NCBI RefSeq assembly: GCF_009696075.1
Contig: NZ_VUMR01000001.1
Coordinates: 1 to 64,000, forward strand
Source: Holdemanella porci
GTDB taxonomy: Bacteria > Bacillota_I > Bacilli_A > Erysipelotrichales > Erysipelotrichaceae
DNA length: 64,000 nucleotides
Direction of reading: 5' to 3'
Every line of letters starts with the position of its first letter. Positions within the stretch are counted from its first letter, which is position 1. The position numbers and the translations under genes are program-made. Below are positions 3,842 to 64,000 of the stretch, one piece after another. The notes beneath the pieces were generated by a model. The model saw only the letters and a list, made by a program, of their open reading frames with translations, searched no databases and was not told the origin of the DNA.

Positions 3842-5056
3842 TTAGTTTATTTTACAATTAATTAATACAATAAATAGCCAAAACATATTAGATGAAAATG
3901 CTTCTTGCATAAATATTAAAGGTATTAATGAACTACAAAGCAAAACATATCTAATTGAAATAGCCATTTCTTTTTTTCTAAAAAAAGAAATAATAAAAGA
4001 GCACCAAATTAGAATCCCAATTAAGCCTAGTTCGGTAGAAACTCTAGCAAATCCACTTAATGTCATTCCAAAATACTGTATTATATATTTTGACACATAC
4101 ATTGAACCAGTACCGATACCACTTCCTAAAAGCATATTGTGTGACCAAGCTTCTTGTACAACCATAACCCAAGCCCTAAATCTAACAAAACCTGAAGAAG
4201 CGTCACGATTATAAACTAATAATTCTTGTAATCGACTTAAAAAATAACCACCTAGATTTGTGAAAGAAATTACTATAGTTCCTATAATAACACAGACTAT
4301 AAATAATGGAACCATCCTATTCCAAAACAACTTTTTTTTAAACATTGTAATAGATAATATAAATAATCCAATTATAAAAATCAAAATTCCAGTTCCTGAA
4401 AAAGTAGTTACCAATGCTAACATCTGTAAAATTACAGAGAAAATGTTTTTCCTAGTTCTCTCTTGTTTATATAAAATAATCGGAACATATAAAAGCAAGC
4501 TAATTGCAAGCATTTGAGAAAAATATGAAGGCTCTCGAAATATTGCATTACTACGATATAATGTTTGTCCAAATATATAAATAGTATTTGTCCAGTTGTA
4601 ACCTGTAACCATATGTCCTTTAATAACTATATCTGTAAATGGAAAGTGGAACAATCTTCCAACTAATTGATATATTCCATATATAGACATATATGTCATT
4701 ATTCTTTGAAATAACCTACAATATCCCTCAAATTCATAAACTTTTTCATCTCTATAGCTCAATAAAGCTAGGATTAAAAAATATAAAGCTAATACAAATG
4801 AAGATGTGTTTTCAAATTCAAAATAGGTGTAATTAATAAATAAATAAATTATAAAAAGCAATAATATAACTGATTGCTGCGTGATTTTTAAATATCTATT
4901 GCGATTATTTATAATATTGTGTACTAAAACAAATATCGAAACAATTGTAAATATTGTAACAGGATATGTTTTAATATAAACTAATGCATATGCATCAAAA
5001 AAAACAGATAAAACTAAAAGTGAATAGATATTTAATTTTCGTATTTTTAATTTCAT
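3842..5056 (-). CDS. Wzy-like O-antigen/EPS polymerase, multi-pass membrane protein
   Basis: This 404-residue protein has about ten or more hydrophobic segments and a large extracytoplasmic loop in the C-terminal half (about residues 265-330, holding SRLQELLVYNRDASSGFVRFRAW and a GSGIGTGSMY turn). That loop is a typical place for catalytic residues in Wzy/Wza-ligase superfamily proteins. It would join lipid-linked repeat units made by cluster B on the outer membrane face. Sequence identity in this family is very low, so the call rests on topology and context. A clean AAAGGAG site precedes the ATG. It is the only polymerase-like protein in the window. Confidence 0.75.
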   Translation of the reverse strand: MKLKIRKLNIYSLLVLSVFFDAYALVYIKTYPVTIFTIVSIFVLVHNIINNRNRYLKITQQSVILLLFIIYLFINYTYFEFENTSSFVLALYFLILALLSYRDEKVYEFEGYCRLFQRIMTYMSIYGIYQLVGRLFHFPFTDIVIKGHMVTGYNWTNTIYIFGQTLYRSNAIFREPSYFSQMLAISLLLYVPIILYKQERTRKNIFSVILQMLALVTTFSGTGILIFIIGLFILSITMFKKKLFWNRMVPLFIVCVIIGTIVISFTNLGGYFLSRLQELLVYNRDASSGFVRFRAWVMVVQEAWSHNMLLGSGIGTGSMYVSKYIIQYFGMTLSGFARVSTELGLIGILIWCSFIISFFRKKEMAISIRYVLLCSSLIPLIFMQEAFSSNMFWLFIVLINCKIN

Positions 5057-5136: not shown

Positions 5137-6327
5137 TCACAAATTCTTAAACTTAAATATTTCATTAAATAAAGTTAAATACTTGTCTCCAATCTTATTC
5201 CAAGTATAATTTAATTCGAAATAATTATACACTTCACTTTCTGGATAAGATTTAGTTCCATTTAATATATCTACACAATATTTAGCAAATCCATTGCTAT
5301 CATCTGCAACAGGAATAAGATGATTAGCATAATATGTTCCTTCAACACCCACTGATGTTGATACAATAGGCTTTTTAAAACTTATTGCTTCAAGAAGCTT
5401 AACTTTAACTCCACCACCATTTTTTAATGGTAAAACAACTAAGTCTGCATTATTATAATATTCTGAAACATCATCAACCATACCAGTTACGACAACGTGA
5501 TCAGATTCTAAATTTTTAACCTCATCAACAGGATCTTTACCAACAATATAAAAAGTTAGATTTGATAATCCTTCATCTTTTAGCAATTTTGGCATTACTT
5601 CTTTGCTAAACCATGTAACAGCCTCTATATTTGGTCCATATGACATTTTACCAACAAACACTATATTTATTCCTTTGTGTGTACTGTGTTTAATTTCATG
5701 CTTATCTGCACCAACTGGTATAAGAACTGCTTGCTTATGATTAATAATGCCATTATCAATCATAAATTTCATATCTTTCGAAGAAACAAAAGTAACTCTT
5801 GAAAATTTATGTTTTTTAAATAAATTTCTTTCATAATGTTTTAATCTATAGCTATCTACAAAATATGCCAGTTTGTTTAGAACGTTCTTATGGCTCTTTG
5901 CTATTGTTCTATAAACCTTCCATTCAATATTGTGCTCATTTAAAACTATAGGAATATCACAATTCAATTTTTCTAAACAAGCACACATATGGGGAAAATC
6001 CACATTAATAACATCAATATGATTATCATCAATACATTTTTTTAAATCATTCTCCATCTCAGATATTACTCGAGAAGAAACTGTGAAAGGATATTTCCAT
6101 AACTTTAGAATTCCTGAAATCTTATTTTTATTTCTGCTATAAGCATGCACTTCTTTACAATATTTTTTTAGTTCTTCAACATATGTTAATTCATTATCAT
6201 TATCATATGGATAGAACAAGTAAATATCTTCTGTTTTAGAAATCTGTTCTAAGCGTTTATAAACACCAATTCTTCCTCCGGTATTAGCAGGAAGAATTGA
6301 TTCCAGTGTTATCCAAAGAATTTTCAC
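5137..6327 (-). CDS. GT4-family glycosyltransferase
   Basis: This is a GT-B glycosyltransferase of 396 residues. The N-terminal half has the acceptor domain with VLNEHNIEW. The C-terminal nucleotide-sugar domain starts at IVFVGKMSYGPN and holds the donor-binding GGGVKVKLLEAI segment, with the EX7E-type glutamate in LLEA. The start is a GTG at 6327 behind GGAGTTGGTAAC. It resembles the next gene in architecture (KxKxLEA motif and a VDDV turn), so the two are probably old paralogues. Donor is unknown; the nearby GDP-heptose genes make a heptosyl transfer possible but unproven. Confidence 0.85.
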   Translation of the reverse strand: MKILWITLESILPANTGGRIGVYKRLEQISKTEDIYLFYPYDNDNELTYVEELKKYCKEVHAYSRNKNKISGILKLWKYPFTVSSRVISEMENDLKKCIDDNHIDVINVDFPHMCACLEKLNCDIPIVLNEHNIEWKVYRTIAKSHKNVLNKLAYFVDSYRLKHYERNLFKKHKFSRVTFVSSKDMKFMIDNGIINHKQAVLIPVGADKHEIKHSTHKGINIVFVGKMSYGPNIEAVTWFSKEVMPKLLKDEGLSNLTFYIVGKDPVDEVKNLESDHVVVTGMVDDVSEYYNNADLVVLPLKNGGGVKVKLLEAISFKKPIVSTSVGVEGTYYANHLIPVADDSNGFAKYCVDILNGTKSYPESEVYNYFELNYTWNKIGDKYLTLFNEIFKFKNL

Positions 6328-6343
6328 GTTACCAACTCCATTT

Positions 6344-7603
6344 TTATTCTATATTTAATAAATTTTCAAAATTATTTTTTGCTACTTCCCAAGTGAAATT
6401 ATGTAAAATATAATTTCTCGCACAAGATGACATATCATGTTGTAATTTTTGATTATTTAAGATATTTAATATACAGTTTGCAAATCCAGAGTATGTATCT
6501 TCAATAAACCAATCTACACCATTAACTGCATTTATATTTTCTGCTCCAATTGTAGTTGTAACAACAGGTAATCCCATTGCCATTGCTTCGAGATTTTTTG
6601 TCTTAATTCCGCTTCCAAATGTCATTGGGCAAACAAAAACCTTACTTTTTGCAAGATAATCCCTAACATCATCTACTCTTCCAGTAAATTCTACATTACT
6701 TGAGCTGTAAGACAATAATTTATCTGATGCCCCACCACCTATAATTGAAAATAACGTATCTGGTTGCTTTTGTAAGACTAAAGGGAATATATTTTCTATA
6801 AAATTGATTACTGCATTTTCATTATGAGCAACATTTAAAGCGCCTAAAAATGAAATAATATTTCTATTTTCTAAATTCTTGACAGGAAAAAAATAATCTA
6901 CATCGACTCCTATTGGTACTGCCACTGCTTTATTTTCCTTTAATTGTGAATTAAATTCCTTTACTTCTTTCTCTGCAACAAATACAGTTTTATCACAACT
7001 CTTGCCTATTTCTAGCTCATACTTATCGAGCAATTTTATTTCTCTCTTTAATACAAAAACTTTTAATGGTTTTAATAGGGCTATTTTTTGCAAAAATTTT
7101 GGAATTGTATATATAAATGCACCATAAGGATTAACATTTTCAATATCTGTATTTAATTGTCTTTTATACCTTAATGAGATTCTATCATCCAAGTCTGCTA
7201 TACTGTAGATGTCTCTGTCTCTTATATACTCAGTACATCGAACCATATCACTAATAATTATTTTTGGTTTTTCACTTTCGACAAGATTATCGATTTGATT
7301 CATTGCACGCTTACTTAAAAACAACGATACTTGCAAAGGTACTTTTCCTTTGATTATCGATTTAAAAATAATATTGTTAATTTTTTCTTTTTTTAATGGT
7401 TTTTTTAATATTACTAATTTATCGATAAAATCCGGTTTTAAATTTGGATCATCTCCACTTTCTAAGAAAGCAGCTACAACTAGACGATACCCTAATTCCT
7501 GTGAAAGAATCTTACAATAATGATATAAAGAAGTTTTGCGTCCTGAAACAGCTGGAAAAGGAAGTCTTGGCATGACAAAGAGTATTGTTTTTTCTTTATT
7601 CAT
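6344..7603 (-). CDS. GT4-family glycosyltransferase
   Basis: This 419-residue GT-B enzyme begins with the loop ILFVMPRLPFPAVSGRK, typical of EPS GT4 proteins. Its C-terminal donor domain carries SFLGALNVAHNENAV, FTGRVDDV and FGSGIKTKNLEAMAMGLPVV. The start overlaps the last 8 nt of the upstream heptose fusion gene, giving coupled translation. It most likely adds one sugar of the cluster B repeat unit on the cytoplasmic side. The overlap with the heptose gene makes it the best candidate for a heptosyltransferase, which is inference only. Confidence 0.85.
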   Translation of the reverse strand: MNKEKTILFVMPRLPFPAVSGRKTSLYHYCKILSQELGYRLVVAAFLESGDDPNLKPDFIDKLVILKKPLKKEKINNIIFKSIIKGKVPLQVSLFLSKRAMNQIDNLVESEKPKIIISDMVRCTEYIRDRDIYSIADLDDRISLRYKRQLNTDIENVNPYGAFIYTIPKFLQKIALLKPLKVFVLKREIKLLDKYELEIGKSCDKTVFVAEKEVKEFNSQLKENKAVAVPIGVDVDYFFPVKNLENRNIISFLGALNVAHNENAVINFIENIFPLVLQKQPDTLFSIIGGGASDKLLSYSSSNVEFTGRVDDVRDYLAKSKVFVCPMTFGSGIKTKNLEAMAMGLPVVTTTIGAENINAVNGVDWFIEDTYSGFANCILNILNNQKLQHDMSSCARNYILHNFTWEVAKNNFENLLNIE

Positions 7604-9521
7604 CCTCTATTTCTCCATAAAAATAATCTTCTAACATCAGACACAGACAATGATAAACAGGTAAGTGCAATTCTTGAATCATATACGTTTCGGTTTCAGG
7701 TACTTTAATGCATACATCTGCTATTTCAGATAGCTTACTCTCTTTTTGTCCAGTAAGCCCTATTACTTTCATTCCCTTTGCATGTGCTGTAACTGCAGCA
7801 TATAGAACATTTTTACTGTTTCCACTCGTAGAAATACCTAAAAAGATATCCCCCGCATTACCAAATCCGTTTACTTGTTGAGCAAAACATAATAACGGTT
7901 CACAATCATTCATATATGCCGTTGATAGTGCTAAATGCCCATCTAAAGCAATTGCGGGTAAAGCTCCCTGTAAATTTTTAGATAACACAAGACCTAATTC
8001 TTCATCTTCTTGAATTAATTTACTTTTAAATTCTTTATCTAGTTTTCGAGGCAACTTAAAACTTTTCATTAGTTCCCCTACAACATGTTCAGAGTCAGCA
8101 GCTGATCCACCATTGCCTGCTACTAAAAGCTTGTTTTCGTTTGCATAAGACTCTTCCAACAAATAATAAGCATTTAAAATATCATCTTTACAAGATTCTA
8201 AAGCAGGATATCTTTCTATTAACAAATCAACATGTAATAATATTTTTTTCATATTTCTTCCTACCACTCTATTAACAAACGAAAATAATGAATCTACAGT
8301 CAAATCCTGTCCATAATCTTCACTTCCAATTAATGCAGTTCTACATCCAGCATTCTTTCCAGCTTGAATATCATTCTTTCCATCACCAATCATCCATGAT
8401 TGTTCTAAATCAATATTTAGATCTTGCGCAGCCTTGAATAACATGCCTGGTTTTGGCTTTCTACATTCACACTCAAACTTTAATTCTTTAATTTCTCCCT
8501 CATATCCACTATCAGGGTGGTGCGGGCAGAAGTAAATGCCATCTAAATATGCACCATCTTCTCCAAGAAGAGTTTCCATTTTATTATGGATTTCTTGCAA
8601 ACCTTCATATGTTACTTCACCTCTAGCAATTACAGGTTGATTTGTAACAACAACAGCTAAATATCCTGACTGATTGATTGTCTTAATAGCTTCAGAAACT
8701 CCTTCTAACAATTCAAACTGTTTTGTATCTCTCAAGAAACCTACATATTTATTAATTGTACCATCACGATCAACAAATATAGCTTTTTGTTTATTTTTAA
8801 GATTTCTTCCTTCCACAATGCCGTTTTTAAAATCCTTGCATACCCCTTCAAATCTATCAGGAGTTCCCATATCTTTTACATATTCAGGACTATCATAACA
8901 GTACATTGTACCAGTACCGCATAACGGTTTTAATACTTGTCTATCTAAATCTACTTTTTCTGTAGTAAATTGCATATTTAAAACTTCTGGACTAATAACA
9001 TGCAAACCTGCATTCACTCTATTCTGATAGAATTTTGGTCTTACATCTTCTTTAGCAAGCCATTTTTCCACTTGTTTATCTTTATTTGCAATAATCAATC
9101 CACTATCATAAGGATGATTATTAGGATGCGTAAACAAAGTTACTAACCCTTTGTGTTCTTTATGGAAGTTTACAAAGCGATTAAAGTCCACATTAAACAT
9201 TGCATCAGCATTTAACAAAAGAAAATCCTCTGTTAATTTATCCTTTAATTGGAATAATGCACCTGCATTTCCTAATGGTTGTTTTTCCACAAAATAGTCA
9301 ATATGAACTCCTAACTGAGACCCATCGTTAAAATAGTCCATAATCACATTTGCCTTATAACCTACAGTCAAAATAATATCCGTAAATCCCTGTTCCTTTA
9401 AAGAACAGATTTCTCTTTCCAACACCGGAACTCCACACACTGGTATCATTGGTTTAGGAATATCTGGAAACAATTCTGATATTCTTGTACCTTTACCTCC
9501 AGCCATAATCACTACTTTCAT
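7596..9521 (-). CDS. Trifunctional GDP-heptose enzyme: HddC-like nucleotidyltransferase + GmhB phosphatase + GmhA isomerase
   Basis: A single 641-residue chain joins three enzymes. Residues 1-225 form a sugar-1-phosphate nucleotidyltransferase (MAGGKGTRISELFPDIPKPM; NADAMF for the metal site), like HddC. Residues 246-400 form a HAD phosphatase of the GmhB type, with DRDGT (D251 and D253), TNQ, the zinc-loop pattern CPHHP...CECRKP and GDGKNDI. Residues 424-641 form a SIS isomerase of the GmhA type, with AGNGGSAADSEHVVGEL and STSGNS. Together they would cover sedoheptulose-7-phosphate isomerisation, bisphosphate dephosphorylation and GDP transfer. Only the kinase is missing, and it is the gene just upstream. 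The ATG at 9521 has GGAGG 9 nt ahead; an earlier in-frame start would run into that kinase. Confidence 0.87.
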   Translation of the reverse strand: MKVVIMAGGKGTRISELFPDIPKPMIPVCGVPVLEREICSLKEQGFTDIILTVGYKANVIMDYFNDGSQLGVHIDYFVEKQPLGNAGALFQLKDKLTEDFLLLNADAMFNVDFNRFVNFHKEHKGLVTLFTHPNNHPYDSGLIIANKDKQVEKWLAKEDVRPKFYQNRVNAGLHVISPEVLNMQFTTEKVDLDRQVLKPLCGTGTMYCYDSPEYVKDMGTPDRFEGVCKDFKNGIVEGRNLKNKQKAIFVDRDGTINKYVGFLRDTKQFELLEGVSEAIKTINQSGYLAVVVTNQPVIARGEVTYEGLQEIHNKMETLLGEDGAYLDGIYFCPHHPDSGYEGEIKELKFECECRKPKPGMLFKAAQDLNIDLEQSWMIGDGKNDIQAGKNAGCRTALIGSEDYGQDLTVDSLFSFVNRVVGRNMKKILLHVDLLIERYPALESCKDDILNAYYLLEESYANENKLLVAGNGGSAADSEHVVGELMKSFKLPRKLDKEFKSKLIQEDEELGLVLSKNLQGALPAIALDGHLALSTAYMNDCEPLLCFAQQVNGFGNAGDIFLGISTSGNSKNVLYAAVTAHAKGMKVIGLTGQKESKLSEIADVCIKVPETETYMIQELHLPVYHCLCLMLEDYFYGEIEDE

Positions 9522-9522
9522 A

Positions 9523-10542
9523 TTATTTTTCCTCCAAAGGCACATAAGTTTCTGGTGTATAATGGATTACTCTTGTACCTCCATCTTCAAACTTAAATGG
9601 AATATGCATTAGATCTTTCATAGCTTCTTTTACAGCATCCTGGCATTCAGGCTGAACATAGAACACCAAGAAGCCTCCACCACCAGCACCTAGTAATTTT
9701 CCACCTAATGCACCAGCTTTCATACCTTTATCATATAACTCATCAATGTTATTAGTAGAAACAGCTGATCCTGTTTGTTTTTTTAAATTCCATGTATGAT
9801 CCAACATTCTTCCAAAATCATCTAAATCAGCAGCACTATCAGTTAATATATTTTCCGCTTTATCTACCAAAGATAACATTTCAAGGTATCTTTTTTCCTT
9901 AGCTTCTCGTGTTTCAATTGATCCAGCATTTGCCTTTTGTACATCAGATGAAAATCTAGTAAATCCCGTAAAAAACATCATTAAATTATTATTTAATTGT
10001 TTCTTTCTTTCCGGCGAAATAATTACAGGTAAAACATCATAAGTACCATCTGTATTAAAATTAATTCTGTTAAATCCACCAAATGAGGCGGCTATTTGAT
10101 CTTGCCAACCACCAGCTTCATCACATAGAACTCGTTCAAGATAAATAGCTTCATCAGCTAATTTTCTCTTGTCTGCATATTTGCCTTTTAAAGCATAAAA
10201 TGCATTCAACATTCCTACCGCAAATGATGAACTAGTACCTAGTCCACTTCTAGCAGGTAAGTCAGCTTCATATGTCAAACGAATTTCATGCATATCTAAC
10301 ATCTGCATTGCATTACGAATCGCTGGATGCTCAATATCATTTACATTTGTTACTCGTTCTGTACGCGAATAAGAAAGTTCAGTACTATAGTCAAAAAACC
10401 TAGGTAAATGTCTAACATTGACATAGCAATATTTATCAAATGTAGTGGATAAAACAGCTCCTCCATGTTTTTTAAAAAAGCTTTCTATATCTGTACCACC
10501 ACCAAAAAAAGACATTCGAAATGGTGTTTGTGTAATAATCAT
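9523..10542 (-). CDS. hddA: D-glycero-D-manno-heptose 7-phosphate kinase (GHMP kinase)
   Basis: The 339-residue protein is a GHMP-superfamily kinase. It has the N-terminal TPFRMSFFGGGTDI, the ATP-binding ARSGLGTSSSFAVG loop and the C-terminal GAGGGGFLVFY. These features match HddA, which phosphorylates D-glycero-D-manno-heptose 7-phosphate at C1. The stop lies just inside the upstream side of the trifunctional gene start, so the two are tightly coupled and together encode all four steps from sedoheptulose 7-phosphate to GDP-D-glycero-alpha-D-manno-heptose. A good AAAAGGAG site precedes the ATG. A fucokinase-like alternative is less likely given the GmhA/GmhB partner. Confidence 0.88.
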   Translation of the reverse strand: MIITQTPFRMSFFGGGTDIESFFKKHGGAVLSTTFDKYCYVNVRHLPRFFDYSTELSYSRTERVTNVNDIEHPAIRNAMQMLDMHEIRLTYEADLPARSGLGTSSSFAVGMLNAFYALKGKYADKRKLADEAIYLERVLCDEAGGWQDQIAASFGGFNRINFNTDGTYDVLPVIISPERKKQLNNNLMMFFTGFTRFSSDVQKANAGSIETREAKEKRYLEMLSLVDKAENILTDSAADLDDFGRMLDHTWNLKKQTGSAVSTNNIDELYDKGMKAGALGGKLLGAGGGGFLVFYVQPECQDAVKEAMKDLMHIPFKFEDGGTRVIHYTPETYVPLEEK

Positions 10543-10574: not shown

Positions 10575-12026
10575 TTAAACCGCACCTTTTTTACATACTA
10601 CAACTAGTACAGTTTTTAATAGAATCTTAATATCTAAACCAAGATTCCAATTCTCAATATAATATTTATCAAGTTTAACTACTTCTTCAAAATCTATAAT
10701 TTCACTTCTTCCACTCACTTGCCACATTCCAGTTATACCTGGTTTTATAGCTAGTCTTGCAAAGTGTTGATACTCATATAGATTTGTTTCTGATATTAAA
10801 GGAGGTCTAGTTCCTACAATAGACATATCTCCTTTTAATACATTAAAAAATTGTGGAAATTCATCTAAACTTGTTTTGCGAATGAATTCACCAACACCTG
10901 TTTTATGAGTTCCATCCGACATGACTTTATTTCCAATAACTCGAGGATCAAAATCAAGTTTAAACATTTTACCATCCCCAAGCTTATTGTCTTTCATTAA
11001 TTCTGCTTTTCTTTCTTCCGCATCTAAGTACATACTGCGAAATTTATACATCTTAAATTTCTTGCCATTCTTACCAACACGTTCTTGTGAAAAGAAAATG
11101 GGGCCTGGACTAGCAATATAAATTGCAGGTCCTATAAAGATACAAATAATTAATGTTAATATGCATCCTAATAAACCACAAACAATATCAAATATTCTCT
11201 TTAAGAACAATTCATTTAATGAAGCATAATTTATACTTGTAGTAAGAACCGTATAATCCCCAATCTTTTCAACAAACTGTTTCTTACCAGGTGAATTAAC
11301 AACCTTAGCTAAATTCATATGTACTGTAATACCAGCCTCTGTTAATTGTTCAATCAAAGTATTTGGATAAGCAATTTCTTTAGGTAAAACAATTAATACT
11401 TCATCTACCCATTCTTTACATGCATACATACCAACTGTTTCATTATTTGCTACTACAGAAACATTATTAATTTGATTTCCAATCAAATCCTTATCTAATA
11501 ATGCAAAACCAACAATGTCATAACGAGAATAATTATTCTTTTCAACATTCTCAATTACTTTATCTGCAATCGTACTAGATGTGACTATTAATAGTTTTCT
11601 TCTCTTACCACTATTCACACCCTTTTTTATATGAGTCTTCCACAGTTCTCTTAATATATATGTCAATATAAAATAAATGCCGATTGTTAAGAATAAAATA
11701 AATCTTGAAAAGAAAACTCCCTTTTGAACTGTAAACAAATATAAAACAGCCAATAAGCAAACAATAAAGCTATGTTTTAATGTTTTTACAAACTCTTGAT
11801 AATGCCCTCTTTTTAATACACCCTTTAATGTACCAAAAATCAGTAAAACCATTAAATCTGCTGCTTCTAATATGATAGCCATATTCCTATATAAGAAATT
11901 ATTATATAGGTGTATATTTCCATTCTTAATAAAATAAGCCACGACAAATGCAATTTGCAAACATATCATATCAAGAATGATAAAATCGATATGTTTCAAC
12001 CACCCATTTGTATTCTTCCTATACAT
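10575..12026 (-). CDS. Initiating polyprenyl-phosphate glycosylphosphotransferase (WbaP/CpsE-type)
   Basis: This 483-residue enzyme is a long-form PGT. Four or five membrane helices (about 12-120) precede a nucleotide-binding-like cytoplasmic domain (about 130-250). A re-entrant/TM segment (about 268-295) leads into the catalytic domain with FKMYKFRSMYLDAEER and GEFIRKTSLDEFPQFFNVL...DMSIVGTRPP. It would transfer a sugar-1-phosphate to undecaprenyl phosphate, the first step of cluster B. It is the first gene of the operon, behind a structured leader with a terminator hairpin 26 nt before the start. The window has a second, short-form PGT at the head of cluster A, implying two separate glycans. 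Confidence 0.9.
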   Translation of the reverse strand: MYRKNTNGWLKHIDFIILDMICLQIAFVVAYFIKNGNIHLYNNFLYRNMAIILEAADLMVLLIFGTLKGVLKRGHYQEFVKTLKHSFIVCLLAVLYLFTVQKGVFFSRFILFLTIGIYFILTYILRELWKTHIKKGVNSGKRRKLLIVTSSTIADKVIENVEKNNYSRYDIVGFALLDKDLIGNQINNVSVVANNETVGMYACKEWVDEVLIVLPKEIAYPNTLIEQLTEAGITVHMNLAKVVNSPGKKQFVEKIGDYTVLTTSINYASLNELFLKRIFDIVCGLLGCILTLIICIFIGPAIYIASPGPIFFSQERVGKNGKKFKMYKFRSMYLDAEERKAELMKDNKLGDGKMFKLDFDPRVIGNKVMSDGTHKTGVGEFIRKTSLDEFPQFFNVLKGDMSIVGTRPPLISETNLYEYQHFARLAIKPGITGMWQVSGRSEIIDFEEVVKLDKYYIENWNLGLDIKILLKTVLVVVCKKGAV

Positions 12027-13867: not shown

Positions 13868-16800
13868 CTATTTCTTCAACAATACATTTACCATGTTCAC
13901 AATATCATGACCATAGCTCTTAGAAGTAGCCCATCCATATCCATTTGGATTTTCTTTAATTCCTAACCATTCCACATATTGAGCAATACCACGCTTCACT
14001 AAATTGAATCTTGGATCCACACATGGATTTGTTAATGGGGATACGGAACCATAAGCTTTTAGATGTTGAATCTGAGCACGAATACCCATTCTTACATTGC
14101 TAAAGCTAGCTCCATGAACTGCTCCAGTTGCACCAATACCTGCAAAGTTATATTGGTTTGGAAGAACGTCTCCACCATATTTTAAGAAACCTGTTTCTTT
14201 CATACATTGTGTAAAGGCAACTTCAGCTCTAACACCCTCAGCCGTTGCTTCTTCATAGAAGATTTGAGCAAATTGGTTGATTGTACTAGCTCCACCCTTA
14301 GCTAAACATCCATCATATTTACCGTTGTATTTTGCTTTAAATGTATCATAACCTAACGCATTCGCATTGTAGTAACGAACCATTTGAGCCACTGTAGTTT
14401 GACTAGTACCCATGATCTGCATCAAACCACCCGTTGCATTCGTATTAATATATTCAAACACCCATTTTTGTGCATTTGTGTTATTTGATGTATATAGCTG
14501 AATGTTTGAACATCTACGGATTTTACCATCTTTTACATCCAAGACCATAGTTGAATTCAAGGCAGAAACAATACGTAAATTTTGATTATTATCAAACATT
14601 ACAATCCATTTTTGATTGTAGTCGTTCGTTTGTTTTTGTTGATAAACGTTAGCCGTTATACCACTACCACTAGCTGTCAAATACATACCTGAACCAACAT
14701 TTTGGAAAGAAACATATCCAGTTGAATCATGTGTAATTTTCCATTTTTGTGCATTTGTTTTATTTAATGAATACAACTGAACGTTTGCACCACCATACAG
14801 ACTTCCATCCGCAACATCTAACGCAAATCCAACATTTTGATTTTTGATGTAATAAACACCATCAGCCATACGATCCTTATTTTGACTGGCATACGAATCA
14901 CAACGCTCACGCTCTGTTACATATTTATTAAAAGTCCATTGTTGTGCTGCTGTATTATTACTCTTATATAGTTGAATATTAGAGCCAGAATAAACAGAAC
15001 CATTTCTAATATCTAAAGCAAAACTTGTATCTATCGCAGAAACAATTGAATATCCGGAACCACTCTGTTGTACAATCCATTTTTGTGCACGAGTACCGTT
15101 TGATGCGTATTGATGAATATTTCTACCATTTTTTGTGATAGCTCCATCTAAGTCAATTACTTTACCCGAATTAATATTTGTGAATGTGACAAAACCTTGA
15201 GAATCATGACTCACTCTAAATGCTTGTGCTTGTGTTCCATTACGTAAGTATAATTGAACATTCGCGCCATTTCTTGTTGAAGCTGAATTAACATCTAAAG
15301 TATAATTACTGTTTTTTACACTATTGATCTCGTATACACCATCGGCTAATGTGTTCTTGTTTTGTGCCGCCAAATTATTGATTCTTTCATCTTTACTTAC
15401 ATACTTAGTAATATTCCATCTTTGTGAATTTGAACCTGTTACAGAATGCAATTGAATATTACTTCCATTTCGAACAGATCCACTATTTAAATCAAGAATA
15501 TAGTTTGGATTTATTGCAGACATCACAACATATCCATTACCATCTTGCTTTACAATCCATTTTTGAGCACGTGTACCATTGGAAGTGTATTGCTGTATAT
15601 TACCTGCATCTTTTACAATTGCTCCATTTAAATCTAATACTCTTCCAGATTTTACATTTGTAAATGTTACATAACCTTGAGAGTCATGTGAAACTTTAAA
15701 TTGTTGAGCTGCCGTATCATTTGCTTCATATAATTGAATATTGGCTCCATTTGATGTTGAGCCATCTTTTACATCTAATACATAATTAGAATTTAATAAA
15801 GTCGAAATCGTATATGTACCATCTGCTAAAACATTTCTTTTTTCCGCTGCTAACGTATCTATATCAGCATTTTTAGCTTGTAAACCCAATGCACTTACAA
15901 TCCCCTTCGCATCCGCAATACCAAGTTGTTGTAACTTAGCATTTGAACCTAAATATTTATCAAACTCTTCTTTATTACTAATAAAACAATGTTCAACAAT
16001 CAATCCCGTGATATTTGCTTGTTTTGCATAACGGATGACTCCATAATAATCTTGATCACTACTGTTTGGATTTGATGAAGTTGTACCATCCGTATAGTTA
16101 CGTATCTTAATACCACGATCATATAAACCTAATGCAGCTAATTGACTTTGAATCGCCTTAGCTAGATTCTGTCCATTACTAGAAAGGTTCTTATTGCCAC
16201 TTGTATTTGGATAATAAACTTCTGCACCATGAGCTGCTGAATTTTGGGCAGAATTAATGTGAATACTAATAAAGTAAGAAGCACCTGCTTTTTTAGCTAC
16301 TTCCACACGATTTTTCAAATCCATAGCCGCTTCTTCACTTAAACGAGTATCTGTAGTTCTAGTCATAACTACATTTACATCATATTTCGATAATTCTTCC
16401 TTACAATATTGAGCAATCTTTAAAGTTAAATCCGATTCCTTTGCCCCAAATGCAGTAGCACCAGAATCACTACCACCATGTCCTGGATCCAAACAAATTG
16501 TCATTCCACCAGTCGCATGTCTTGAAAACTCATCTACTGACATTATAGCCGGTTGACTCGCAACCCCATTCACAATCTCTTCTTCAGCCTTATTTACATC
16601 CGTAACTTCAATAACACCTTCTGAACTTATTGAATCCTCTGTTAAATCCGGTAACGTTGCATCATACCCATCATATTCTTGATCCACACCAAACTTAACA
16701 TCCATTTCTAAATCACTAAAGTTTAAATAATAAGCTTGTCCATTATATACATAATGAAGTGTAGTCACACTATATTGTCCTTTTTCTTCTTCAGTAAACA

Positions 16801-17227
16801 CTCTAGAAAATTTCACTAAATTATCAACTTGTTCAGAACTCTCTAAATCAAAAGTAGACCCATCCTCTTTTTGAATGGTCAATCTAAAATCTGAATACCC
16901 CTCTGCATTATTTAATGAAAGAACAAAGTTTTCTGTTTCTCCATTTGATAATACGGGATTATCGACCAAGAAATATTCCATCATATTCGAATCACCCAAT
17001 TGCTCTTCTTCCACAACTGGCTCTTTCTCAACAACTGGAACTTCTTCCTCTTCTACAGTAGGAACTTGCTCTTCTGTAGTCTCTTCTTCTGTTTGTGTTT
17101 CTTCTACAATAGGCCCTTCTTGTGTAATTTCATCATCTGCACGAACTGTATACATATTATTCAATGTTGATACAGACATAAATACACTTAATACGAGAGC
17201 CAAAAGTGGTTTTAATTTTTTTGCCAT
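13868..17227 (-). CDS. Secreted bifunctional autolysin: Amidase_3 + three ricin-type trefoils + glucosaminidase
   Basis: The 1119-residue protein starts with a signal peptide (1-30) and an acidic Glu/Thr-rich linker. An N-acetylmuramoyl-L-alanine amidase domain follows (242-450), with zinc ligands H250 (in DPGHGG), E264 and H323 and catalytic E412. Three ricin-B-type beta-trefoil modules span about 468-608, 628-768 and 788-926, each with AQxW/QKW repeats. A LytD/FlgJ-like glucosaminidase domain closes the protein (about 933-1119; likely catalytic E1011 in CMKETGF). It should cleave both the stem-peptide link and the glycan strand of peptidoglycan, with the trefoils binding a wall carbohydrate. 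It has its own TTGAAA/TAAAAT promoter and a strong terminator. It sits between the two glycan clusters beside another trefoil enzyme with near-identical modules. Confidence 0.88.
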   Translation of the reverse strand: MAKKLKPLLALVLSVFMSVSTLNNMYTVRADDEITQEGPIVEETQTEEETTEEQVPTVEEEEVPVVEKEPVVEEEQLGDSNMMEYFLVDNPVLSNGETENFVLSLNNAEGYSDFRLTIQKEDGSTFDLESSEQVDNLVKFSRVFTEEEKGQYSVTTLHYVYNGQAYYLNFSDLEMDVKFGVDQEYDGYDATLPDLTEDSISSEGVIEVTDVNKAEEEIVNGVASQPAIMSVDEFSRHATGGMTICLDPGHGGSDSGATAFGAKESDLTLKIAQYCKEELSKYDVNVVMTRTTDTRLSEEAAMDLKNRVEVAKKAGASYFISIHINSAQNSAAHGAEVYYPNTSGNKNLSSNGQNLAKAIQSQLAALGLYDRGIKIRNYTDGTTSSNPNSSDQDYYGVIRYAKQANITGLIVEHCFISNKEEFDKYLGSNAKLQQLGIADAKGIVSALGLQAKNADIDTLAAEKRNVLADGTYTISTLLNSNYVLDVKDGSTSNGANIQLYEANDTAAQQFKVSHDSQGYVTFTNVKSGRVLDLNGAIVKDAGNIQQYTSNGTRAQKWIVKQDGNGYVVMSAINPNYILDLNSGSVRNGSNIQLHSVTGSNSQRWNITKYVSKDERINNLAAQNKNTLADGVYEINSVKNSNYTLDVNSASTRNGANVQLYLRNGTQAQAFRVSHDSQGFVTFTNINSGKVIDLDGAITKNGRNIHQYASNGTRAQKWIVQQSGSGYSIVSAIDTSFALDIRNGSVYSGSNIQLYKSNNTAAQQWTFNKYVTERERCDSYASQNKDRMADGVYYIKNQNVGFALDVADGSLYGGANVQLYSLNKTNAQKWKITHDSTGYVSFQNVGSGMYLTASGSGITANVYQQKQTNDYNQKWIVMFDNNQNLRIVSALNSTMVLDVKDGKIRRCSNIQLYTSNNTNAQKWVFEYINTNATGGLMQIMGTSQTTVAQMVRYYNANALGYDTFKAKYNGKYDGCLAKGGASTINQFAQIFYEEATAEGVRAEVAFTQCMKETGFLKYGGDVLPNQYNFAGIGATGAVHGASFSNVRMGIRAQIQHLKAYGSVSPLTNPCVDPRFNLVKRGIAQYVEWLGIKENPNGYGWATSKSYGHDIVNMVNVLLKK

Positions 17228-17326: not shown

Positions 17327-20300
17327 TTAGATTTTTGTTAGTTTAAATTTCTGAGCATTTGTGCCATTACTTTGATATAGTTGTATATTTTGTTGGTTTT
17401 TAACAATCCCTGCATTAATATCTAATACGTAGTTCGCATCTAAAGCAGATACAAATGTCAAACTACCATCTGTATTCTTCTTCGCAATCCATTTCTGAGC
17501 ATAGGTGTTATTAAGTTCATATTGCCAAATATTGGCACCATTATTCACACTCGCATTTGAAACGTCAAGTGCTTTATTAGATCCAACATTAATAAATGTG
17601 ATATAACCTACTGAATCCTTTTTTACTTTCCATTTTTGTGCATTAGTATTATTTGATTTGTAAACTTGTAGGTTACCACAATTTGACTTTGAACCACCAT
17701 CAATATCTAACACATAATTAGGATTTGAATAACTTGTAACTACATACGTTGTTTCTTCAATACTAGAATTGTATTGTTTAGCCATGTTATTTAATTTTTC
17801 ACGTGGAGATTCATATTTTGAAAAATACCAACGTTGTGCAGCCGTATCATTTGATTTATAAGCCTGAATATTTTGATAATTTCTTGTCAAAGCAGAATCT
17901 AAATCCAAGACATAGCTTGTATTTAACGCAGACATAATTTTAAAACCTTTGTTTTGTTGTACTACAATCCATTTTTGAGCATATGTATTATTAGAAGTAT
18001 ATTGACTAATATTCTGTCCATTATAAGCAGATCCATCTTTGACATCGATTGCTTTTCCTGAACCAATATTTATAAACGTAACATACCCTTTTGAATCGTG
18101 ACTGACTTTCCATCCTTGTGCTAAAGTACCATTACTTTGATATAGTTGAATATTACCAAAATTTACTTTAGAACCACCATTTACATCCAATACATAACTT
18201 TTATTTATAGATGAATGGATTGTATAAGTACCATCACTTAATGTGTTTTTGTTCTTTGATGCTAATGCATCCATTTCTTCACGAAGATTTTTTACTTTCA
18301 ACAATTTCCATGCTTGTGCAGAACTACCATTTACGGTATAAAGTTGAACTTTATTACCATTGTCTAATTTTGCCCCATTCAAATCAAATACATATCTAGA
18401 ATCCCAAGCTGAAGAAATAATCCACTGTCCATTACTATTTCTAGTAAAAATGAATTGACCTGCTTTTGAAGAAGCATTTACGCCTTGAATTAATGAATTA
18501 TAATTTCCCATTGTGTTCCAATCTGTACTAATACCTACATATAAATTAGAACCAACATTCTTAATTGTATAGTAGCCATTTTGATTTTTATTCACTACAA
18601 ATTGTTGTGCTTGCGTACCGTTCCAATTATAAATTTGAATACTAGCACCAGATGCTTTTGAACCATCTTTTATATCAAGTACTTTATTACTATTTAATGA
18701 AGAAATAATTTCATAAGTTCCATTAGACATTTCATCCTTAATAATGTCAAAAGAAACATTCAATGTACCTGTAAAGGCATTAATACCAATAATAATGGCT
18801 GTACCTTTACCTAAATTTACATTATTCGAATAAACAACTTTATAATCTCTTCCTTGAACCAATGCTGTATTTTTCAATGAAAGATTTACTTCTGGTTCAA
18901 CATTATTACCTGTATAATAAACACTTCCTACATGAGCATTTCCCTTAGAAACATCTAGATATAAATTTTGATCTCTAAGTTTACCTAACGAGAAGAATGG
19001 ACCACCATTCTTTCTATCACTACTATCCCATGATGGATGATTGAAGACCTCACTAATATGTACACGACCATTACGTGAACTTGTATATGGATCATATACT
19101 GTTGTATAGCCCTGTGCATCTAAACCAAATAATAATATTTCATGCGTTACACCATACCATGGACAGAATTTTCCGCCACCAACAGCCGCCGCAATCATAT
19201 TCCCCTTTAATAATTCTTGTTTAGCTGATTCCACATTTAAATTATTCTTATAACTCAAGCCAAATTTATTCGCAACAAACTGCCAAGACTCTCCACCAGT
19301 ACCAATGGAACTTGTGTTGAAGTAACCAGCATTATGCAAAATTTGACCAACTTGATAAGGCGTATAGTTTGTACCATTGATTGTATTTACGATCATAGTA
19401 ACCGTAGTAGGAACACATCCTGAACCACCAAAACGGTAACCACCAACCGTATTCCAAGCCCATCTTCCATCATTTTGGCAGAAGTAAGAAACACCATTCC
19501 AACTTGCTTTTGTAATGAAGCCATTACCATCTGTTTGATATGTTACTTTATCAACTGTAAAAGAACCACTCATTCTTCTACCCAAATTGTCATAGTATTT
19601 CACACTATTTCCAATATTCACAAAGCCAACAGATAAACTACCATCTTCCTTGAAATTGTACCAATATCCATTTGCCTGCTTTTCACCAACACTCTGCAAT
19701 CCTTTATCGAAATAATAAACTTTCCCCTCTAAATTTATCATTCCACTATAAGCAGCTCCATTATCTAAATAGTAGTGTAATTTACCATCTTCTTTTCTTA
19801 AAGAATATACGGCAACACCCGTTTCTTGATCATGAAGAACTTGTAAACCCGTCTGCATCATACCAGACTCATTAAAATAATATGAATCTGTACCAATTGT
19901 TTTAAAACCTGTTACCTTGTTTCCATTCTCATCAAAATAATATTTTTGACCATCAATCTCTGCAAAACGATTCGTAACATAAGCACCATCTTTAACATAC
20001 TGTAAAGAATCACTTGACCAACCCTCAGTTAATTTAGCACTGGCATCACTACCACCACCAACTGTTGTAGTCTCTTCATCTTCTTTTGGAACATCTGTTT
20101 CTTCCGTGTTTTCAGGAACATTTGTTTCTTCAGTGTTTTCAGGAACATTTGTATCTTCAACAACCGCATCAATAACATCTGTTAATTCATCTTGATTTTC
20201 TACAGGTGCAGTCTCTTTTACAGGCTCAACACTTGTTTCTTCAGCATGAACGATAGTATCTGCAAAATTATAACTCATAACCGCTGCAAGAACGGCAAAA

Positions 20301-20329
20301 CCAACTTTAGCAATATCTCTATTATTCAT
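17327..20329 (-). CDS. Secreted C39-like cysteine peptidase with choline-binding-like repeats and three ricin-type trefoils
   Basis: The 1000-residue protein has a signal peptide (1-29) and a Glu/Thr-rich linker with the 9-residue repeat NVPENTEET (61-79). Cell-wall/choline-binding-like repeats follow (about 104-275; KVTGFKTIGTDSYYF type). The C39-like papain-fold peptidase (about 278-430) has the triad C305 (GSGC), H396 (GVTHEILL) and D413 (VYDPY). A MBG-like module (about 455-530) and three ricin-type trefoils (about 538-676, 698-838, 858-1000) complete it. Peptidase_C39_2 domains on wall proteins usually act as amidases or peptidases outside the cell; here peptidoglycan or a surface protein is the likely substrate. 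The trefoils closely resemble those of the neighbouring autolysin, so both probably share a ligand. Confidence 0.85.
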   Translation of the reverse strand: MNNRDIAKVGFAVLAAVMSYNFADTIVHAEETSVEPVKETAPVENQDELTDVIDAVVEDTNVPENTEETNVPENTEETDVPKEDEETTTVGGGSDASAKLTEGWSSDSLQYVKDGAYVTNRFAEIDGQKYYFDENGNKVTGFKTIGTDSYYFNESGMMQTGLQVLHDQETGVAVYSLRKEDGKLHYYLDNGAAYSGMINLEGKVYYFDKGLQSVGEKQANGYWYNFKEDGSLSVGFVNIGNSVKYYDNLGRRMSGSFTVDKVTYQTDGNGFITKASWNGVSYFCQNDGRWAWNTVGGYRFGGSGCVPTTVTMIVNTINGTNYTPYQVGQILHNAGYFNTSSIGTGGESWQFVANKFGLSYKNNLNVESAKQELLKGNMIAAAVGGGKFCPWYGVTHEILLFGLDAQGYTTVYDPYTSSRNGRVHISEVFNHPSWDSSDRKNGGPFFSLGKLRDQNLYLDVSKGNAHVGSVYYTGNNVEPEVNLSLKNTALVQGRDYKVVYSNNVNLGKGTAIIIGINAFTGTLNVSFDIIKDEMSNGTYEIISSLNSNKVLDIKDGSKASGASIQIYNWNGTQAQQFVVNKNQNGYYTIKNVGSNLYVGISTDWNTMGNYNSLIQGVNASSKAGQFIFTRNSNGQWIISSAWDSRYVFDLNGAKLDNGNKVQLYTVNGSSAQAWKLLKVKNLREEMDALASKNKNTLSDGTYTIHSSINKSYVLDVNGGSKVNFGNIQLYQSNGTLAQGWKVSHDSKGYVTFINIGSGKAIDVKDGSAYNGQNISQYTSNNTYAQKWIVVQQNKGFKIMSALNTSYVLDLDSALTRNYQNIQAYKSNDTAAQRWYFSKYESPREKLNNMAKQYNSSIEETTYVVTSYSNPNYVLDIDGGSKSNCGNLQVYKSNNTNAQKWKVKKDSVGYITFINVGSNKALDVSNASVNNGANIWQYELNNTYAQKWIAKKNTDGSLTFVSALDANYVLDINAGIVKNQQNIQLYQSNGTNAQKFKLTKI

Positions 20330-63292: not shown

Positions 63293-63400
63293 CCTCTCAT
63301 CACTGAAGTGACGAGATTCTTGGGAACAGGGTTTCTATCGAAACCTTTCTTACCAAGCTATCCCCGCAGTTCCTGCGGTTTTTATTAATTTTAGTTAATT
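63286..63400 (-). ncRNA. Putative omega-RNA / right end of the TnpB element
   Basis: Just after the tnpB stop, the minus strand shows three hairpins. CCGCAG/CTGCGG spans 63378-63364, GGTTTC/GAAACC spans 63345-63330, and a terminal TCTCGTCACT/AGTGATGAGA stem with one G-U pair spans 63316-63295. This order is typical of IS200/IS605 right ends, from which TnpB-associated omega-RNA is produced; the guide would start just beyond the end, in the Fic sequence near 63290. The exact RNA ends are not known. Confidence 0.6.
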
Positions 63401-64000
63401 TGCTAATATGCCCTGCATCAATATATTGATGGATGCATTTATATCTCTGTCATGATTTGAATGGCATTTTGGACATGTCCATTCTCTTACTTTTAAATCT
63501 TTTGTTCCTTCATTCTTATATCCGCAACAATGACAGGTCTGACTGCTCGCATAGAACGTGTCTACTTTCTTGATTACCTTTCCATACCACTTTGCTTTAT
63601 ATTCTAGCTGTGTTGTAAACTTTGACCAGGATACATCCGATATAGACTGGGCTAGATTGTGGTTTTTAAGCATGTTGTCGACTTTTAAGTCTTCTATACA
63701 GATGATGTCATATTCTCTAATGATTCTAGTAGATAGTTTGTTGATAAAATCCATTCTTTGACTCGCTATCTTTTCATGAAGTCTTGCAATCTTGATTCTG
63801 TTTTTGATCCAGTTGCGGCCGCCCTTTGTTTTTCGTGACTGCTGCTTCTGTAGCTTTTTCAGTTTCTCAATCGACTTCTTCAGATATTTTGGATTCTCTA
63901 CCTTTTCTCCATTACTCAATATGATAAAATCCTTGATACCTAGATCTATACCTGTTTCATTATATGTCAGTGGAAACAAGACTTCTTCTACATCCGTATA
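63395..64000 (-). CDS. tnpB: IS200/IS605-family TnpB (OrfB), C-terminal part
   Basis: The frame runs off the window end in phase. The visible 201 residues hold the RuvC-like catalytic set: Asp in NETGIDLGIKDF, Glu in DIICIEDLKVDNML and Asp in SNHDRDINASINI. They also hold the zinc finger CHCCGYKNEG...WTCPKCHS, so the nuclease looks intact here. TnpB is an RNA-guided DNA endonuclease that helps keep its element. The start and any tnpA lie beyond 64000. The element interrupts the Fic gene downstream. The sequence shows no stops or frameshifts. Confidence 0.9.
   Translation of the reverse strand, partial: YTDVEEVLFPLTYNETGIDLGIKDFIILSNGEKVENPKYLKKSIEKLKKLQKQQSRKTKGGRNWIKNRIKIARLHEKIASQRMDFINKLSTRIIREYDIICIEDLKVDNMLKNHNLAQSISDVSWSKFTTQLEYKAKWYGKVIKKVDTFYASSQTCHCCGYKNEGTKDLKVREWTCPKCHSNHDRDINASINILMQGILAN

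Follow-up and report, generated by a model that had tools for sequence, protein, structure and literature searches.

A putative GDP-heptose gene set in Holdemanella porci with a three-domain reading frame that probably arose by recent loss of a stop codon

Known heptose-nucleotide pathways and the Holdemanella porci gene set

The GDP-heptose route has been worked out for Campylobacter jejuni (PMC10680097), and a set of four genes for it is also annotated in Acholeplasma oculi (PMC4221730), in both cases according to the available parts of the papers. A first-pass annotation of the DNA studied here had presented the route as known from the S-layer glycans of Aneurinibacillus, which is an incomplete account given these two further organisms. 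In the pathway order found in the accessible text on C. jejuni, the kinase acts between the isomerase and the phosphatase (PMC10680097). The fusion described below has a parallel in the ADP-heptose route, where HldE joins two steps of heptose-nucleotide synthesis (PMC10269868, in the portion available), and ADP-heptose is a ligand of ALPK1 according to the accessible part of another report (PMC10221265). In the open-licence PMC literature, no paper was recognizable from its available text as dealing with a heptose-related fusion of nucleotidyltransferase (NT) and HAD phosphatase domains, or of both with a SIS isomerase domain, an absence that is weak evidence. By title, nothing found there for Holdemanella and heptose concerns the glycans of this genus.

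The window analyzed here, by which we mean the whole stretch of 64,000 nucleotides from H. porci, carries homologues of the enzymes that take sedoheptulose 7-phosphate to an NDP-heptose, one for each of the four steps. These four enzyme classes are adjacent, share one orientation, sit within the polysaccharide gene cluster of this Gram-positive gut bacterium, and keep their catalytic motifs, which lends support to the four-step pathway proposed in the first-pass annotation. The set resembles known GDP-heptose systems, including that of C. jejuni, in its enzyme classes, the order of its chemistry, and its surface-glycan cluster genes (PMC4221730, PMC10680097). However, the C. jejuni enzymes are separate proteins in the available text (PMC10680097), whereas in the window the NT, HAD, and SIS parts occupy one frame and score below the NCBIfam equivalog cut-offs. 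The pathway is already known in kind, and its three-domain chain is a variant private to this genome in the samples examined.

The fused gene is a real open frame of 641 codons plus a stop with the domain order NT-HAD-SIS (Table 1). It lies on the minus strand together with the kinase gene, and the plus strand of this stretch is full of stops in the frame that was translated. Numbered from an upstream ATG that would give 649 residues, profile matches place NTP_transferase at 10-230 and the HAD/GmhB-like domain at 252-406, while SIS is matched as two stretches, the best of which is 528-599. The three-domain frame that had been proposed is confirmed by these matches, and its stated length of 641 residues is right if translation begins at 9521. 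This start (ATG 9521-9519) has a strong GGAGG site (duplex dG -9.3 kcal/mol), and close homologues begin at the equivalent position; the ATG at 9545 has no ribosome site (dG 0.2). Because 9521 is the supported start, the kinase and fusion genes abut without overlapping, with 1 nt between the kinase TAA (9525-9523) and the fusion ATG. Thus, the fusion does directly follow an HddA-like kinase gene, as first noted, but the two do not overlap as had been claimed; we rejected such an overlap, which would need the ATG at 9545. The sole overlap of the fusion frame is one of 8 nt with the downstream GT4 gene.

Table 1. Features of the putative heptose gene set and its neighbors in the window
Feature	Position	Strand	Basis
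Polyprenyl glycosylphosphotransferase (glycan-unit start), gene before kinase	10575..12026	-	TIGR03025, 355.9 bits (cut-off 295.55)
GHMP kinase, HddA-like, 339 residues	9523..10542	-	PF00288/PF08544
Fused NT-HAD-SIS frame	7596..9521	-	ATG 9521, 641 codons; ATG 9545, 649 codons, no ribosome site
NT domain, HddC-like	8826..9521	-	PF00483, 94.3 bits; PDB matches
HAD-IIIA phosphatase domain, GmhB-like	8304..8792	-	DxD, TNQ, Cys/His zinc-site, and GD motifs
Junction codons 426-432 (R V V G R N M, 649-residue numbering)	8250..8270	-	Alignment
AGGAAG, Shine-Dalgarno-like, before internal SIS ATG (8252)	8257..8262	-	Anti-SD duplex dG -5.5
SIS domain, GmhA-like isomerase with insertion	7611..8252	-	Own ATG 8252; TIGR00441, PDB alignment
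GT4 glycosyltransferase, overlapping fusion 3' end	6344..7603	-	PF13692, 95.2 bits
Second GT4 glycosyltransferase	5137..6327	-	PF13692, 88.6 bits
Wzy-like membrane protein (weak)	3842..5056	-	PF04932, 28.7 bits (below 31.7 cut-off)

All four enzyme parts fall below the curated NCBIfam equivalog or subfamily cut-offs, the GmhB-like part only just. We therefore liken the set to the GDP-heptose pathway, as which it appears from its sequences to work, without certifying the single enzymes. The kinase scores 140.9 bits against the HddA model NF049969 (cut-off 600), and the solved structures that match it best are those of heptose-phosphate kinases and a “putative sugar kinase” (4usm, E 1.9e-39; 3k85, E 1.9e-36; 4n3o, E 1.6e-32), with the GLGTSSS and QDQ segments of GHMP kinases aligned. 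The NT part keeps the GGxGTR...PKP motif and scores 92.7 bits against the HddC model NF049965 (cut-off 300) and 153.8 bits against the mannose-1-phosphate guanylyltransferase model NF052502 (cut-off 440). Its nearest solved relatives are mostly named mannose-1-phosphate guanylyltransferases (7whr, E 2.1e-29; 7d72, E 3.7e-28), and the next matches are 5xhw and 6jq8, entitled “Putative 6-deoxy-D-mannoheptose pathway protein” (E 3e-22).

The HAD part reaches 169.3 bits against NF006506 (cut-off 178) and 149.3 bits against TIGR00213 (cut-off 149.6), both of which are GmhB models. Its alignment with the solved D,D-heptose 1,7-bisphosphate phosphatase 2gmw (E 3.3e-35), the GmhB of Escherichia coli, retains DRDGTIN, TNQ, CPHH, CxCRKP, and GD, including the DxD, Cys/His zinc-site, RK, and GD motifs of GmhB. 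The SIS part scores 130.9 bits against the GmhA model TIGR00441 (cut-off 209.45) in two stretches with an insertion between them, and aligns with solved GmhA structures 2xbl and 2x3y at GNGGSAAD..H...E, STSG, and QE.HL...H, so that the H, E, STSG, Q, and H residues of GmhA are present. The motifs aligned in the SIS, HAD, kinase, and NT parts are catalytic ones of their enzyme classes. The insertion amounts to about 26 residues relative to solved GmhA, follows the conserved glutamate region (7965-8045, minus strand), and also occurs in the SIS proteins of relatives.

With these parts, the SIS domain would isomerize sedoheptulose 7-phosphate, the separate GHMP kinase would supply the 1-phosphate, the HAD domain would take off the 7-phosphate, and the NT domain would attach GMP. 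The resulting GDP-heptose donor might then be used by the neighboring GT4 enzyme. GDP is the likely nucleotide, judging from the guanylyltransferases that are the nearest solved relatives of the NT part, and the genes are best read as a GDP/alpha-anomer route. HldE differs from the GDP route in its kinase class (PfkB) and its nucleotide. Its kinase domain (TIGR02198, cut-off 345 bits) has a best score of 65.4 bits in this 94.15% complete genome, which gives no sign of an ADP-heptose pathway, and the genome has no Gmd-type dehydratase over cut-off. Because neither HldE nor Gmd is found over cut-off, unmodified GDP-heptose is the likely product and ADP-heptose is not expected from the genes of the window. 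With a GDP/alpha-anomer route as the best reading and no HldE over cut-off, the connection to ALPK1 sensing drawn in the first-pass annotation is weak.

Arrangement of the genes in relatives

Genome searches gave matches in 2 of 2 genomes of the genus, 19 of 195 of the family, and 32 of 315 of the order (limit 1e-20 each), and in 17 of 392 of the phylum (1e-25). These sets overlap and include the genome itself, and part of the matches lack NT-HAD coverage. Further additions were 80 loci from named genomes (the best 80 of 585 relatives, a cut that biases the sample toward close kin), 6 viral contigs, and 3 faecal scaffolds. NT-HAD, SIS, and kinase stretches were then called by scanning every open frame of these loci with local profile models.

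In this sample, which includes the best 80 of 585 relatives, none of the 101 distinct NT-HAD stretches outside the window has SIS in the same open frame. The three-domain order that we looked for in databases is thus absent from all 101, and a trifunctional NT-HAD-SIS chain conserved in more than one lineage was not found among them. A separate SIS gene is near NT-HAD in 77 cases, and there is no SIS in the sequence examined in the other 24, some of which may be cut at contig ends. Counted by neighbors, 67 of these stretches have SIS and a kinase, 10 have SIS only, 11 have a kinase only, and 13 have neither. The common arrangement is an NT-HAD gene of two domains with SIS next to it as a gene of its own, and among related bacteria a usual order runs from the kinase through NT-HAD to this separate SIS. 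The claim that three activities are carried by one chain therefore holds for the domains in the sequence of the window, but such a chain is absent from every relative examined.

One other Holdemanella genome was available for comparison. The cassette of H. biformis DSM 3989 (L053/L009) has the same gene order, with identities of 82% for HddA, 73% for NT-HAD, and 61% for SIS. There, however, a stop codon ends NT-HAD and the SIS gene starts in a different frame.

Of 646 matching plasmid records, 3 reach a query coverage of 80% or more at a single location, and all three consist of joined pieces (two in H11, three each in H12 and H17). The pieces bear separate gene names in H11 and H12 and no gene names in H17. 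The two-domain NT-HAD protein, which NCBI calls “HAD-IIIA family hydrolase” in Lawsonia intracellularis and on Rhizobium plasmids, matches the first two domains of the window's chain and is often near GHMP kinase and SIS genes, but it has no SIS domain. On L. intracellularis plasmids of about 27 kb (H13-H15), the NT-HAD gene adjoins a GHMP kinase gene. Three contigs listed as viral in IMG/VR (L132, L133, and L134) have NT-HAD with SIS, and a kinase stretch is present in L132 and L134.

The combination of an NT-HAD gene with SIS and GHMP kinase neighbors extends beyond gut Bacillota to Bacteroidota, Spirochaetota, and other groups, and this wider pattern may matter more than the fusion in the window. 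The genes go under generic names only, as in the plasmid records, and their spread points to heptose in many surface glycans, including those of Gram-positive bacteria.

The junction, the fused chain, and competing explanations

Alignment places the joint within about 3 residues, with the NT-HAD half ending in ...SLFSFVNRVV and the SIS half starting with MKKILLHVDLL. Codons 426, 429, and 430 are each one substitution away from TGA. The AGGAAG site before the internal SIS ATG has a duplex energy close to the average for 32 listed gene starts (-6.0), but of 243 other in-frame ATGs inside genes, 19 score as well, and we regard the site from its sequence as a moderate candidate for a Shine-Dalgarno site. 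In the sample including the best 80 of 585 relatives, a SIS opening lies at most 200 nt downstream in 52 loci (not deduplicated), in another frame in 43 and in the same frame in 9. A single stop codon makes the split in 8 of these 9, which represent 7 distinct loci since L008 and L055 are one locus.

Trees were built from 33 cases with NT above 250 bits, SIS above 200 bits, and SIS at most 60 nt away. The SIS half groups with Holdemania filiformis (L010, identical to L058), with Blautia MSJ-19, and with one faecal scaffold, at a support of 90/90 that is not starred. Trees constrained to place it with H. biformis (p-AU 4.6e-47) or in the nearest clade of the NT-HAD half (1.2e-56) are both rejected. 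The NT-HAD half groups with L062, L063, and L065 (99/95). When constrained to the kin of the SIS half, it gives p-AU 0.0399 in a four-row test that includes L054, which replaces an earlier three-row grouping (L010, L037, and the window, with L054 left out) that gave p 0.004; its placement with H. biformis is not rejected (p-AU 0.088). Since the kin of the two halves differ, the SIS half appears to have a history of its own. The evidence for an exchange comes mainly from SIS, because the NT-HAD tree does not reject the H. biformis grouping and rejects the other one only at 0.04. The join could have been made, or accompanied, by a crossover close to the joint.

We put the probability at about 0.7 that the join is a recent, private loss of a stop codon and not an established trifunctional enzyme, in a heptose set of known kind whose free SIS protein is probably still made. 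That a recent loss left the old start in place is argued by the near-TGA codons, the relatives split by a single stop, and the internal ATG with its AGGAAG. Within the samples examined, the join is best read as private to the genome of the window, and the mutation itself we infer. With the stop between NT-HAD and SIS missing, ribosomes could produce the fused chain, and free SIS would probably be made as well from the retained ATG and ribosome-site-like sequence. The loss may have been accompanied by exchange of one half from another lineage.

The fused chain holds step 1 (isomerase), step 3 (phosphatase), and step 4 (nucleotidyltransferase), with step 2 left to the separate kinase. Because that step separates the isomerase from the phosphatase, the chain cannot hand the isomerase product directly to the phosphatase, and the case for channeling is weak except from step 3 to step 4, which are also joined in the two-domain NT-HAD protein of many relatives. 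Channeling of intermediates by one enzyme, taken as an established arrangement, is not supported, given the intervening kinase step, the privacy of the join in the samples, and the retained SIS start and ribosome-site-like sequence. As a molecule, the fused chain looks feasible in the model, since its frame is fully open and AlphaFold, run as one chain with a 12-row alignment, folded all three parts (mean pLDDT 79.0, pTM 0.65; 58.6 to 79.0 over five models). A helix at 412-437 runs through the joint, with pLDDT below 50 at 422-424, and other low stretches are 471-491, 521-542, and 636-641.

The open 641-codon frame, the motifs kept in each domain, the predicted helix through the joint (of low confidence right there), and the fact that NT-HAD is itself a widespread fusion would all suit an established trifunctional enzyme whose fused chain is the working form, selected for flux or for shielding of intermediates, with HddA docking. 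We find this unlikely, because no other NT-HAD stretch is fused to SIS (0 of 101, the best 80 of 585 relatives included), the SIS ATG and its Shine-Dalgarno-like site are kept, and a kinase step falls between the fused steps in the pathway order of the available text (PMC10680097). A sequencing or assembly error that hides a stop or a change of frame at the junction, with the genes in reality separate, would agree with the unfused state of every relative examined (again including the best 80 of 585) and with the draft state of the assembly (133 contigs, 94.15% complete, 2.82% contaminated). However, both halves keep conserved frames up to the joint, and the substitution error needed seems unlikely; we consider such an error improbable. 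We also rejected, by inspection, an indel in the A7 run that follows the SIS ATG, as it would shift SIS out of the frame of its own ATG.

It is similarly doubtful that the set makes another product, either because GTP is not the nucleotide that the NT part uses or because the set leads to a related sugar. Scores far under the HddC, HddA, and GmhA cut-offs would allow for this, but the solved proteins nearest to NT are mostly guanylyltransferases by name, the combination of SIS, GHMP kinase, GmhB-like HAD, and NT is seen in 67 of the 101 distinct cases (best 80 of 585 relatives included), and a Gmd over cut-off that might remodel the donor is missing from the genome.

GmhA works as a tetramer. 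A fused chain, if made, might on this pattern form a particle in which phosphatase and guanylyltransferase arms, four in number, are tethered to a fourfold isomerase core, while free SIS subunits from the internal start tune the ratio and HddA docks to close the cycle. We hold this to be a long shot, and the AlphaFold model, being a single chain, is silent on oligomers. If real, such a particle would amount to a heptose-nucleotide metabolon that assembles itself, observed just as a gene fusion is born. Under the preferred reading of a private stop-codon loss, what looks in a raw genome like a “multifunctional enzyme” of three domains can stem from a one-off event of this kind.

Glycan cluster and other fusions

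The genes around the heptose set are those of a surface glycan cluster (Table 1). The GT4 gene that overlaps the fusion is a candidate user of the NDP-heptose. The fusion is also followed by genes for a WbsX-type enzyme, a hexapeptide acetyltransferase, and an aminotransferase with an FdtA-like protein, and ABC-2 transport and LytR-CpsA-Psr genes lie further up in the window. A “Wzy-type” glycan, as first suggested, is plausible, but the score of the Wzy-like protein is below cut-off and the window also has an ABC-2 transporter gene. If heptose were confirmed chemically, it would be an extra sugar on the known surface of gut commensals.

Elsewhere in the window, two large neighboring proteins (13868-17227 and 17327-20329) have seven RicinB_lectin_2 stretches each. 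One of them also has amidase and glucosaminidase domains, and both are probably wall-acting enzymes with lectin repeats. A 194-residue frame at 63395-63979 encodes an IS605 OrfB/TnpB-type transposase (OrfB_IS605, Cas12f1-like TNB), the start of which may be shortened.

Another fusion, of NT-HAD with a P-loop kinase of the uridine kinase/phosphoribulokinase type, recurs and may be of more interest than the one in the window. It was seen in L097 (5001-6878), L099 (4995-6866), L101 (5001-6869), L103 (4989-6866), and L112 (4947-6797), with PF00485 at 43.4 bits in L097 and recognition by eye in the other four (L112 being without a PF00485 match). Its hosts are Bacteroidales, Flavobacteriales, Cryomorphaceae, and Nitrospirillum, and an HddA-like kinase is near it in L097, L101, and L103. 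In a genome of the family Erysipelotrichaceae, to which H. porci belongs, L033 (634-2121) encodes a HAD-SIS fusion of 496 amino acids (PF00702, PF13580) whose HAD part has no GmhB-like profile match. Finally, a Pacearchaeota metagenome-assembled genome carries an epimerase-NT-HAD fusion of 709 amino acids (L116, 4038-6164).
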